From NCBI RefSeq assembly GCF_036785885.1, contig NC_092317.1:2730501-2794500 (forward strand): DNA of 64,000 nucleotides, given 5' to 3'. This document shows, one piece after another, positions 12,117 through 17,608 of this stretch (position 1 is its first letter; every line of letters begins with the position of its first letter). The position numbers and the translations under genes were made by a program. The notes below the pieces were generated by a model. The model was not told the origin of the DNA, did not search any database, and saw only the letters and a list, made by a program, of their open reading frames with translations. The DNA is from Coffea arabica. Taxonomy: Eukaryota; Streptophyta; Magnoliopsida; Gentianales; Rubiaceae.

Positions 12117-12615
12117 TCAACATATATAGTATAAGAGCCGAAGAGCTCTTACGACTTGGATGGTTTTCGTTGTCCTCTCACGTGCCGCACTTGTGAGTCA
12201 CCAGCCTTTTTTTTTTCCACGCGATGCGCCAGACGTCTGCATATACTTCCTCTCTAAGGTTTTCTTAAATTTCCTCCGCTGCCGCCGCTTTCTCTTCTCC
12301 CCTTCTCTCTTCGCCTTACCTTTATTCTCAGAAGCTCCGTCTCTTCTACTTTGTTTTCTCTTCTCCAAAACATTCGATCTCTCATTTTTTTTCTCTTTCT
12401 CTTGGTTTTGTGTTAAAACCTTCATTGCATTGAATTTTTTTTCACTTTTTTTAGGTTGCGACTGGATTGATTTTTAATTTCTGGACTCTTATTCTCCGTC
12501 TAAGATAGAGTTGGAAGCGCAGAAGCATCTTCCGCTGTTTGCTCTGTTTTTTTCCCTTTTTAAGGTACTACCTTCTTTATTCTGATGAAATTGGTACTCT
12601 TCCATAATAGTGTCC

Positions 12616-13332
12616 ATGTCGATTTCTGGAATTCAAGGTCAACCCCTGGAGATCACTAGTAATCATTCTTCTCCTTTTTTGTTTACCAGTTCCTGTTCTC
12701 TTTTGAACATTGTTGGTATTTCTGACGAATTCTTTCGGGAATCTGGAATGAACCTTTGCCGTTGTAGACTACAGCAAATTGAAGGATACGGAGTGGATTT
12801 CAAGACAAGATCCTTACATTTTTCTGGAGTTTCAGCACTAAATTCCGTACCCGTACCCACACAGGTATGTAATTCTTATTATTTCCTCTTTTTATCTCTG
12901 TTTGATTGTTTTTTCAATTACTACTAATATTCGAGCTTGTAAGAAAACTCTCCATTTTGTTGCCTAACTATTCTATTCTACTGCTACTTAATTACTCATG
13001 TAGACAGTGGAAAAACCCTACTTTTGAAGAGAAATTTGTCTTCTCCTTGATTGAAGGGCTAAGGAAGGTCACTGTTGCTATTTGGAACAGCAATACCATT
13101 ACCTATGATGATTTTATTGGCAATTGAAAGTAATAATGTATTCTTTAACTTTCTGCTTTTTGTTTTCCCTGTATTCTATTCATTGTATTAGTTTGAGTAT
13201 TTGCATTTTGTTCTATACTTTTAGATGATTTATTATTTTTTTCCTATTATTGTTAATCTATTAGGGTTCGGCTGCAGAAAGTGCTTTCTCAGGGATTTGA
13301 TGAAAGTTCTTGGCCACTCCAAACTAAAATCG
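12616..13332 (+). pseudogene. C2-domain protein gene fragment (exons 1-4)
   Basis: Exon 1 (12616-12657) reads MSISGIQGQPLEIT. Exon 2 (about 12761-12864) reads LKDTEWISRQDPYIFLEF, then loses 2 nt and continues in another frame as STKFRTRT. Exon 3 (13004-13129) reads GKNPTFEEKFVFSLIEGLR and YDDFIG. Exon 4 (13265-13332) reads VRLQKVLSQGFDESSWPLQT. This is a plant single-C2 protein of the type that binds Ca2+ and phospholipid. The frameshift in exon 2 and a Gly-to-stop change at 13125-13127 kill it, and the following exons are missing. The pyrimidine-rich DNA before it (12160-12600) looks like the donor gene's leader. Introns are kept, so it was copied as DNA, not from mRNA. Confidence 0.8.
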
Positions 13333-13651
13333 GTAGGTATAATATACAAAAGATAAAAAGGGACAATTACCTGCCATATTCATTCTTTTGTAGGTTAATA
13401 CATACTTGAACATTTAAAAATTGTACTTATGAGAAAATTGGAATAGCTACTCAAACTTGGTATATTTGTAAAATTTTGACAAGATTGATAAACATACTAT
13501 ATTGTTTACATGGCATTTTTCTTACCTGTATTTTGCTAAATGGTTTAAACCATGCCATGAGATAGATGGATATATTCAATGATGCACTGGAATGTTTTCT
13601 ATTTTCATGCTTAATAGTTGCTATTAATTCATTTTCTATCTTCTGTTGCAG

Positions 13652-15131
13652 CTCCTAGAAATAGCTCAAGTTCTTGATGAACATGTGAGATTCAATTTCT
13701 TCTGGTTTCTTTACCTTTTAGCGAAATGCTTTTAACTATTGGCATACTGCATGCAATCTTGTACAATTTAAACATTGTCTCTTTAAATAACTATTTCTAC
13801 ATAAGAAGGTCCCAGGATTGATGTATGTAGGGGTATAAGCATGTTACATACAACCAGTTAGGTTAATCAGTATGGTTGTTTACTTAATGTGGAGTTAGAT
13901 CCATCGATCTATTTAGGCAACTAAACAAGGGTATCTAGAATTAGCCCATTCTTGATGTAACATCTTTTTCTTGGGTTACACAATTTCATAGGCATCATTT
14001 TGATATTAAAGGATTATGCTGCTCCTCTTTTTTTATAGGTGAATGAATTCAAGTCGATAGAGAAGTTCAAAATTTTCAATCCCAACAACTTGTAAGTGTT
14101 ATGCTTCTCATTTGAAGCTGAAATATTATTTGCTTCAAGCACTGTGGGCAATGCTTCCTTCATGGAAAATGCAATGGAATGATATATTTCTGCTATCATA
14201 CAGATGGGTGAACTTGAAAGCAATCGAAAGACTTGTACAAGAAAGTGCATTGAAGATGGAGATTATTCCAAATCCAAAGGTTAGATGGGGTGAAAGTTCT
14301 TCAACTTGAAACTGCTGCTGGCGCTACAATAAGGGTACATTAACCTTATCTCTTGATATTCATTTTAAACATCTTTATTTTCCATTTCTTTCCATTTAGG
14401 TTTATCAATATGGCATTTCACATTCAGTCTCCTCTCTACCAACAACCAAAGGTAAGAAGTAAAATTATTTACTTTCACCCCCACCCCTCAATCAGTTCTT
14501 TGATCATGCTATTGAATTCTGTTTTGAATACTATATGAATTGCTATTTATTCATGCATTTAACCTTTACAATTCGACCTGTACACTTTGTCTGATGACGG
14601 CTATGTGGTCTGCAACGAGGCTAGGAAAAATCCAACTAACCCAACTATTGAATTAGGACCTGAATTTAAGAAGGTTGAGATTTTAAGCCTTCCCTATCTT
14701 TCTCCACAGGTTGAATTGTTTATATTGCTAATTGTTTTTTCACTTTTTTAGGTAGGCAACTTCTTAAGTCGTATCAAGTCTATTCCCAGTATTGTTGAAC
14801 TAGATAGCCTGAAGATGAGGGGTGATGGTGGTTTGGATCTGGCATCACCCTGAAGGTAATACAAACTAACTACTTGTCTCCCTATTACTTTGTTTCCCTG
14901 TTACTCTGTTTCTGAAGCTTTATGGATGTATCTGTTCCTTGTAGATTTTCTTGAGACGTGGCAATTTGTGGTTGTACAGTGGTTTGTTATTTCTTATTTA
15001 GTGTCCATATGGCATATGCACTAATTTCTTCTTTTCTCTTTTTTTTCCCTTGTATTAAGGGGAAAGTGACAATAACTGCAAAACTTGGAATCAAATTAGA
15101 AATTTCAGACGAAGTTGTAATTGCTGATAAG
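13652..15131 (+). pseudogene. UDP-glucose pyrophosphorylase gene fragment (C-terminal half)
   Basis: Ordered exon pieces match the C-terminal half of plant UTP-glucose-1-phosphate uridylyltransferase: LLEIAQVLDEH (13652-13684), VNEFKSIEKFKIFNPNN (14039-14091), WVNLKAIERLVQESALKMEI (14204-14334), [10 protein letters not shown]...[12 protein letters not shown] (14575-14673), VGNFLSRIKSIPSIVELDSL (14752-14855) and GKVTITAKLGIKLEISDE (15060-15131). The N-terminal half with the nucleotide-binding loop is absent. Frameshifts occur after IIPNPK (about 14280) and in the exon ending 14855. The segment between the 14204 and 14575 pieces is badly degraded. The intact enzyme makes UDP-glucose for sucrose and cell-wall synthesis; this copy cannot. 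Confidence 0.88.
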
Positions 15132-15759
15132 GTCATATATGCAGCTGACTGCCTTAAAAATTTGGTTCACCGATTCAAAAAAAAAAATTGGTTCATGGTG
15201 CATAGCAATTTGGCTTTACATTCTCTATCTATTGCCAGGTTATAAATGGCCTTGAGGATATTTAAGAGGTCTAATTCTCTGGAAGTGATGCATAGTTTTG
15301 CCATTTTTAACATTGAAATAAACATTTGTTTTCTTTGTGCAATTTTTTTTAAAGAGAAGGTACTGAAAATTTGAAAAGTGATTGAATACTTTTGAACTAT
15401 TTAAAAAGATTATCTGAGAGATATTTGGTGAATTATGGTCCATAATAACGAATAATTGGCACTGAGAATATTTCAAGCAATAAAAGATGAAATCCCTTCA
15501 AAAGTTGTATAATTGAAATTACATTGTTGATGTTAAGTTCCAAATTTTGAACTTTAAGCATCATCAACTCCAAACTTCATATTTATAGGGTGAAGTGGTG
15601 GTTTAAGAAGAATTATTCTCAATTTCGCAGAATGACGTTGGATGTTAATGTAGGAAAAATTTAATCTGATTGAAAAATTCATTTGTAATAATCCATTGTT
15701 CATTCTCTTCTGCTTGTTATACATGTACTTAACCCAAATCATCAGTTGGTTTTTTGTAG

Positions 15760-15894: not shown

Positions 15895-16972
15895 GTATGT
15901 AGGCTAAATTGGCTTGACTGACTCTTGTTAGCCCTCTTGAATTCTTAAATTGTACCATCGCCCAAAATTCAAGGTTGCAGTTGTTTGCTGCTTTGCTTTA
16001 CCTACATTTTTCGCTTGTTCGATGGTTGGTAATTTTTTACGGAGTTGGAATCTTAGAGAATTGCCTTTCCCTCCTACTCCATTATGTGTTTCTTGGATCC
16101 TTGCTTTACTAATGCTTTTGAGCTATCCAATGGTGTTAATGCTAATTTTTTTCATCTTTTTTCCTTGTATGCTTTGTTCTTTTCTTGATGCTAAATATCT
16201 GGCTGTGATTGTTTGCTGCTTTTTGATGTTTTGTCTTTTCTGGTGTTTTGTTTGATTTTCTTTTGGATTAGTCATAAGAGATGTTAAAAAGTAGGAATAA
16301 GTTTTTGGATATTTTGCCATGAGCAGCGTTGTTGAGCTTTGCTTTTCCCCCCTTTTATTCTTGCAGTGCGAATAACACGCTTTTCTTCCGAGCAAATGGA
16401 AATTTGAGCTATGCTTCTATGCCTTTCTGCACTCCACAGTCAAATATTTTGATGACATGGATGCTCTCTTTGACTATGCTATCAAGAACTAAACTGGTTG
16501 CTCAAGTCTCAAGATAATAGCTGCCACTTGGGAACATGCCTTCCTTGGTCACCATACTGATAATCAATCACTAATGTTTATGCCTTCTTTTAATATCTGT
16601 AGACAACATGCATGAGCAGGCCAGCTTGTCAAGAATTAATGAGAAGAGCCTGGCAATAATTCTTACGAGTGGGTAGGATTTTCCATTAAAATTGATACAG
16701 CATGGTTGTTGACCACACTCTTCGCATCATCGAGATATTCCTTTTTATTTCACAATCTGAGAACTCTTGTATTATTATTTTGTTCAATCGAAAAGGAATG
16801 CAAAGACTGTATCCATAGCATTTTAATTTGACTGCTGAGCTCGGTTAACTCATAGTCAACTAAACATGAGAACCTAATCATTTTTTTTTCAAGTTACTAT
16901 AATCACAATTGGATCAATATTGCCGTGTATAATGAAGATGCCTCCTTATTTAGTTTAGTATTTTCCTTTTTT

Positions 16973-17445
16973 GTCATATGAAGCATAATATATACATATG
17001 GTCACACTCTATGCTTCTACACTAAAATGGAAAATAGCAAACTTGATTCTCATGCTAAACAAGTAATGGAGTGAGATAAAAGAAGAATTACTCAACTTCC
17101 AGCTAAAGCAGCTCTATAACTCAACATTACTTCTTTTTTTGTCCTATGAAGTACATTATATATTCTGATCATCACATAATATGTTTCTCCACTTCATGAA
17201 AAATGTTGAACTTTATTCTCAGTCTAAACAAGCAACACAGTAAGATAAAAGAAGAATGGAGTGAGATAAAAGAAGAATTACGCAAGTTCCAGCTAAAGTA
17301 GTTCTATACCTCAGCATTACTTCTTCTTTTGTCTTATGAAGTATAATATATTCTAATCACCACATCATATGCTTACACGCTTCATGAAAAATGCTGAACT
17401 TTATTCTCATTCTAAACAAGCAATAGAGTACGATAAAAGAAGAAT
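16973..17445. repeat. Three subterminal tandem repeats in the Helitron
   Basis: Units start at 16973, 17141 and 17331, each beginning GTC(A/C/T)TATGAAG(C/T)A. The middle unit is 22 bp longer because a GTGAGATAAAAGAAGAAT segment is doubled inside it. They end about 160 bp before the 3' hairpin. Confidence 0.8.
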
Positions 17446-17578
17446 TCACCAATTCCTATTTTCCACTCCTACTTATTCATGTATATTTATATTTAGCTGT
17501 GTACACAAATTATTAACTGACAAACATTTTTGTTCCATGAATCCATATGTCTAAGTGGGCATATTTTCTGTTTATCCC

Positions 17579-17608
17579 AACGCGTGTAGCGCGTTTTATG
17601 CCACCTAG
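17579..17608 (+). other. Helitron 3' terminus (hairpin plus CTAG)
   Basis: A perfect 6-bp GC-rich stem with a 5-nt loop (17579-17595), then TTATGCCAC-type spacer and CTAG at 17605-17608, with T as the next host base. In Helitrons this structure is the rolling-circle termination signal. Confidence 0.8.

Follow-up and report, generated by a model that had tools for sequence, protein, structure and literature searches.

A dispersed non-autonomous Helitron of Coffea arabica with fragments of three host genes

In a stretch of 64,000 nucleotides from Coffea arabica (NC_092317.1, positions 2,730,501 to 2,794,500; hereafter the window, C8:2730501-2794500, C-numbers denoting contigs), pieces of a C2-domain gene, of UDP-glucose pyrophosphorylase (UGPase) and of ureidoglycolate amidohydrolase (UAH) lie side by side at positions 12117-17608. 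How did three genes come to share one segment, and what kind of segment is it? A preliminary description of this DNA had read it as a Helitron that collected three unrelated gene fragments. We searched the genome (1,197,963,845 bases, 131 contigs) for the ends of the segment, its fragments and their parents, and we conclude with high confidence that 12117-17608 is a non-autonomous Helitron with three captured fragments, which was presumably moved in trans, probably acquired the fragments stepwise and then multiplied as a cassette. We read it as a Helitron on the basis of the shared termini, the dispersed copies, a relative's empty site without duplication, and the origin of the fragments from three chromosome pairs. 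The segment is divided as follows.

12117..17608, +: whole non-autonomous Helitron, 5492 bp; both termini common to many copies, second full-length copy L009
12117..12375, +: family 5' terminus, starting TCAACATATATAG, of which mostly about 190-280 bp are common to copies (genome matches, 5' ends compared); right border approximate
12376..12587, +: module common to other Helitrons (L028, 91.5%), no match to the C2 gene
12580..13418, +: C2-domain (elicitor-responsive-like) gene fragment, from 36 bp before the ATG into an intron; frameshifted; parents on C4/C3
13419..15301, +: 3' half of UGPase with introns, stop codon and start of the 3' untranslated region; one exon deleted, frames broken; parents on C14/C13
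15296..15973, +: UAH fragment, one exon (about 15760-15895) with flanking introns; parents on C6/C5, protein match
15974..16311, +: T-rich module after the UAH piece, matched only at UAH-bearing loci
16312..17457, +: Helitron 3' body, with direct repeats at 17056-17445 (D8, D9; spacing 188-190 bp); relatives L067, L068, L020 and L069
17458..17608, +: 3' terminus of the family, with CTAG and a hairpin at 17579-17595 (35 of 40 matches, 30 fetched ends, fold)

Termini of the element

Plant Helitrons begin with TC, end with CTRR, carry a hairpin about 10-12 nt before the 3' end and produce no target-site duplication. In the window copy, TC occupies 12117-12118 and is preceded by A, and CTAG occupies 17605-17608 and is followed by T. 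A search with the first 284 bp (12117-12400; best 40 of 141 candidates) gave 42 genome matches, of which 36 begin precisely at 12117. The last 169 bp (17440-17608; best 40 of 43 candidates) gave 40, of which 35 terminate at 17608 itself and 2 stop one base earlier. These counts include the window's own copy, and the genome totals are at least as high. Other copies with the same ends had been set beforehand as a check, and both proposed ends, A|TC at 12117 and a hairpin followed by CTAG|T, were borne out by these matches and by the fold. We compared 30 fetched 3' ends, that of the window among them: 28 have CTAG and one has CTAA, each of these 29 with T as the next base, and the remaining end is broken. 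Twenty loci with the 5' end (L009-L028) were fetched at greater length; 18 of them have an intact first base, which is preceded by T in 14 cases, by A in 3 and by G in 1. The proposed A before the 5' end was thus right for the window copy and wrong for the family, whose target is mainly T|T, whereas that of the window copy is A|T.

The 3' hairpin, AACGCG-TGTAG-CGCGTT, folds as DNA at -6.7 kcal/mol (z -3.56), a value matched by 1 of 200 shuffles. Hairpins also fold in the variants of two relatives, one of which belongs to the L010 subfamily and has another stem sequence, and in all three variants the stem is 6-7 bp long and ends 13 nt before the last base. Since the hairpin is retained while the stem sequence changes, we counted it in favour of a Helitron. 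The exact 3'-end patterns had no match in prokaryote and viral contigs.

Upstream of this terminus, the 3' body has relatives in L067 (80%, 16370-17158), L068 (81%, 16436-17075), L020 (82%, 16717-17235) and L069 (91%, 16801-17559), and its first part, 16312-16369, has a relative among the fetched loci only in L009. A weak Pfam match to PEN-2 at 16366-16675 (E 0.016) raised a fourth captured gene as a candidate, which we rejected: in both fetched relatives, the corresponding DNA is likewise riddled with stops and continues into the Helitron repeats, and the stretch was therefore treated as Helitron body.

Dispersed copies and an empty site

The second full-length copy, L009 on C9, is 96.5% identical to the window over 12117-17608 (about 3% substitutions, 0.029 overall). 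When the flanks were included, the alignment spanned only 12114-17614, so that homology ends within 3 and 6 bases of the element ends, and the flanks are unrelated. Over about 5.9 kb, L010, L011 and L012 agree to 99.3-99.5%; their ends are of the same type, and their flanks differ. When the two flanks of L010 are joined, the sequence aligns through the junction with C12:53570738-53571226 at 83%, where the site reads CTCCTTTTACT and the L010 flanks read CTCCTTT^TACT, which is a T^T insertion with no duplication and no loss. The C12 site is a related, not allelic, empty site for L010. Moreover, the flank repeats of seven elements examined amount to only 0-4 matching bases, with no consistent target-site duplication.

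The search with the UGPase fragment (all 18 candidates scored) found it at 13 loci, namely the window, C9 and 11 others; a 3' remnant of it lies on C20, and four host loci were matched as well. Each of the 13 has at least one matched Helitron end, and nine have both; seven of the 11 further loci have both ends, 5.8-5.9 kb apart, and four have one. The UAH search (all 26 candidates scored) detected 14 loci with the complete stretch, one on C18 with a part of it, and two host loci, with nine matches for the 16366-16675 stretch, and no match for 15974-16311 beyond the UAH-bearing loci. All 13 loci with the UGPase fragment carry UAH too. The C2 piece was matched only in part at the 11 further loci, in a search with the C2 piece and the 12376-12587 module in which the best 40 of 43 candidates were scored. 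L059, the one of these 11 that was fetched, lacks 16312-17457. After 16311 there are three alternative continuations, one in the window and L009, one in L059 and L015, and one in L069.

At the window's own site, in the counterpart on C7 (L070) position 4968 of the window is connected to 17647, the two sides overlapping by a few bases, and the 12.7-kb block 4969-17646, element included, is absent. The difference is either a deletion on C7 or a larger insertion on C8. The suggestion in the preliminary description to look for empty sites was thus answered by the relative's site on C12 and not by an exact site for the window copy.

Captured fragments and their parents

All three fragments lie on the + strand and keep their introns; the introns of a processed retrocopy would have been removed, and these are not. 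The C2 parent lies at C4:17746245-17747094, with a homoeolog at C3:17595725-17596574 (92-93% with gaps), the UGPase parent at C14:11061216-11063210, with C13:9217984-9219975, and the UAH parent at C6:4212074-4212697 (-), with C5:4058267-4058931 (-); comparisons cover stretches of each locus rather than the full gene length. We read C3/C4, C13/C14 and C5/C6 as homoeologous pairs, at which the parent genes are paired with differences of about 1%. The parents thus lie on three different inferred pairs and do not adjoin, which had been named as a point to check. Another UGPase locus, which contains a stop (C13:21.17 Mb), is less closely related: its Kimura two-parameter distance (K2P) is 0.083, against 0.058-0.069, over 13419-15005.

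Alignment to these parents set the borders 12580-13418, 13419-15301 and 15296/15302-15973, and together with the protein matches it upheld the earlier identification of the three pieces. Exon pieces typed by hand matched C2 (E 4e-11), UDPGP (E 6e-34), UGPase structures (to E 1.2e-61) and ureidoglycolate hydrolase (E 4e-13 across 36 residues), and the closest UGPase proteins to the window pieces, taken piece by piece, are from Coffea (among 120 proteins listed). The first 6 bp of the UAH piece overlap imperfectly with the UGPase end, and microhomologies of 3 and 6 bp, which alignment overlap had indicated at the inner junctions, fell to 0 and 1 bp once the bases were read: the C2/UGPase junction is blunt, and UGPase/UAH has a 1 bp exact overlap. 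The UGPase exon FFDRAIG...LLLVQ is absent from the three copies checked (window, L009, L059), and a 76-bp intron is missing only in the window and L009 among the 13 UGPase loci, its loss not lying at the splice points.

The preliminary description had also proposed a captured C2 leader. This did not hold: C2 homology reaches no further upstream than 12580, 36 bp from the ATG at 12616, and the preceding module 12376-12587 recurs in Helitrons without C2, such as L028 (91.5%). Among the best 40 of 43 candidates, this module has at least 13 matches outside the window, L009 and L010-L012, four of which adjoin a 5'-end match (C16:38.22M, C18:10.97M, C18:7.45M, C21:2.76M), and none lies near the C2 parents on C3/C4.

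Order of capture and proposed mechanism

With exon borders set by hand, the noncoding K2P between the UAH fragment and its parent on C6 is 0.115 (57/534); for UGPase against C14 it is 0.073 (88/1272), and for C2 against C4 it is 0.066 (31/493). With the other homoeologs (C5, C13, C3) the values are 0.109, 0.081 and 0.075. Between the parent homoeologs the values are 0.008, 0.011 and 0.021 in the same order. Because the UAH homoeologs differ least, UAH introns do not look faster, and the distances suggest that UAH was captured first. Judged by the same distances, the captures predate the divergence of the parent pairs.

An element on C18 (L069 + L016) carries part of UAH and the next module and has neither C2 nor UGPase; its last 49 bp were unmatched in the 3'-end search (best 40 of 43 candidates). 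In the module after UAH its distance to the window, 0.065, is close to that of L059 (0.054). Two candidates for a stage before UGPase capture were rejected. In L010, the borders of the C2 piece differ and its K2P is 0.032 to the parent against 0.064 to the window piece, and the C2 gene was probably captured separately there. L015 (C20) retains 60 bp of the UGPase end, and we regard it as a deletion product. L010-L012 (C19 twice, C9) form a very young subfamily with a C2 piece 96% identical to the parent, and L010 carries a second internal 5'-end-like stretch at about L010:4857.

We propose that the element was mobilised in trans by the RepHel protein of an autonomous Helitron in the same genome, which has at least 150 matches to PF14214 (RepHel; best 150 of 763 candidates scored). 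The fragments would have been acquired at the DNA level, one by one during rolling-circle replication, through template switching or as filler DNA at breaks, with UAH probably first and C2 and UGPase later, and the cassette would later have been multiplied and partly deleted in daughter elements. The parents, partial derivatives, an apparent separate C2 capture and a relative's empty site are all present in one genome, which makes capture order and mechanism testable.

Coding capacity

The window copy has frameshifts, stops and a missing exon. Between the window and C9 copies, coding against noncoding differences are 16/346 and 17/493 in C2, 18/540 and 27/1343 in UGPase, and 7/136 and 13/535 in UAH; coding differences are at least as high as noncoding ones, and thus there is no sign of constraint. 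Relative to the parents, UGPase and UAH differ less at coding than at noncoding positions, which is what constraint on the parents would produce. We see no sign of a coding function, and at most a chimeric pseudogene RNA would be made.

A Coffea canephora protein of 156 aa, P0217, has a C2-derived start in another frame, followed by UGPase exons and some intron-derived residues, and lacks the UGPase exon deleted in the Helitron copies. Its first 29 residues match L059 at 93%, and GT and AG are present in L059 at the border concerned. P0217 appears to be a gene model built on such an element, a predicted C2-UGPase splice chimera, and as a model it indicates that the element is also present in C. 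canephora. The annotated 'UGPase' of that species should hence be taken with caution, as it looks like a transposon-borne pseudogene chimera. Six other high-scoring proteins (P0001-P0004, P0010, P0013) were rejected as natural chimeras, each repeating one kind of domain. The C2 gene was apparently captured at least twice, and one may speculate that the family repeatedly samples one host gene and that the cassette is transcribed and spliced as in P0217, its RNA or small RNAs acting on parent UGPase and UAH; we hold this to be unlikely.

Alternative explanations

The retained introns and the single orientation of all pieces would also fit a decayed segmental duplication of a region with three neighbouring genes. 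However, the parents lie on three different chromosome pairs and the homology between window and L009 stops almost at the element ends, which leaves this explanation next to no probability. Another gene-capturing transposon, a Pack-MULE or CACTA element with Helitron-like ends by coincidence, was also considered. Pack-MULEs have terminal inverted repeats and a 9 bp target-site duplication. Here no inverted repeat between the termini was seen by eye (no dedicated search for short ones was made), and neither the seven elements nor the C12 empty site has a consistent duplication, or any, respectively. Although these transposons also capture gene fragments (PMC13317346 for Pack-MULEs and PMC1947982 for CACTA), we give such an origin practically no credence. 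Several observations do weigh against the Helitron interpretation or its parts. The family mostly has T before the 5' end, where the textbook A|T target would have A; no RepHel match lies inside 17 end-paired intervals (paired by eye from the best-scored terminus matches, against the best 150 of 763 RepHel candidates); an exact empty site for the window copy was not found at homoeologous C7, where insertion and deletion are indistinguishable; the capture order rests on a single rate comparison; and the C18 element that carries UAH but neither C2 nor UGPase does not settle that order, as it may have lost the other pieces.

If the segment is a Helitron, the three pieces could still have entered as a chimera already joined elsewhere. 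The order C2-UGPase-UAH is constant wherever the pieces co-occur, and UAH accompanies UGPase at 13 of 13 loci, both of which agree with a single capture; against it stand the higher noncoding difference of UAH from its parent, the element on C18, which has part of UAH and the following module but no UGPase or C2 and may have lost these, and the lack of any host locus with joined pieces among the UGPase, UAH and C2 genome matches (for C2, the best 40 of 43 candidates). We consider a single capture possible but improbable. Domestication of the cassette as a chimeric protein-coding gene, to which the joining of C2-derived DNA and UGPase exons in P0217 might point, is very unlikely: the window copy is disrupted, the exons of different copies evolve no more slowly than their introns, and the modelled first exon of P0217 lies outside the C2 reading frame. 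We retain a non-autonomous Helitron, with capture probably stepwise, as the explanation of this locus.

Other features of the window

Beside the Helitron, direct repeats of about 91-93%, 3.65-4.4 kb apart (5505-7063 and 9917-10721), resemble a duplicated or nested element. Two nested inverted repeats in AT-rich DNA at 26017-26804 (arms 118 and 131 nt, 96% and 93% complementary) are perhaps a fold-back element or one like a miniature inverted-repeat transposable element. A DDE transposase fragment (55102-55473, -; PF13359 DDE_Tnp_4, E 4e-12) is presumably of PIF/Harbinger type. Ordinary host genes are an F-box/Kelch protein gene (1472-2770, -) and part of an Aux/IAA gene (51328-51948, +).

Comparison with known Helitrons

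This is a well-resolved multi-gene Helitron capture in a eudicot, of a kind already known from maize and ryegrass. Among the titles and abstract openings listed for Helitrons, coffee and gene capture, we found no description of a C2-UGPase-UAH cassette. Maize Helitrons captured several gene fragments stepwise (PMC3288121), and they resemble the coffee family in carrying several fragments and in having relatives with different subsets and internal losses. The coffee case differs in its eudicot host, in a three-gene cassette with the UGPase piece at 13 loci, and in parents recognisable in both subgenomes. The preliminary description had called multi-gene capture best described in maize; it is indeed known for Helitrons, but it is not special to maize, since Lp-psGI.1 of Lolium perenne unites fragments of succinate dehydrogenase, a ribosomal protein and GIGANTEA in one non-autonomous Helitron (PMC2702305). 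Lp-psGI.1 shares with our element three gene fragments, non-autonomy, TC/CTAG ends and a hairpin, and differs in the genes and in an A|T target against mainly T|T in the coffee family. Non-autonomous Helitrons of rice and Arabidopsis, which have the same kind of termini as the coffee family, were found to contain few captured genes, and frequent capture was suggested to be perhaps uncommon among plants (PMC2575219); set against that suggestion, the coffee family adds a case of multiple capture outside the grasses.

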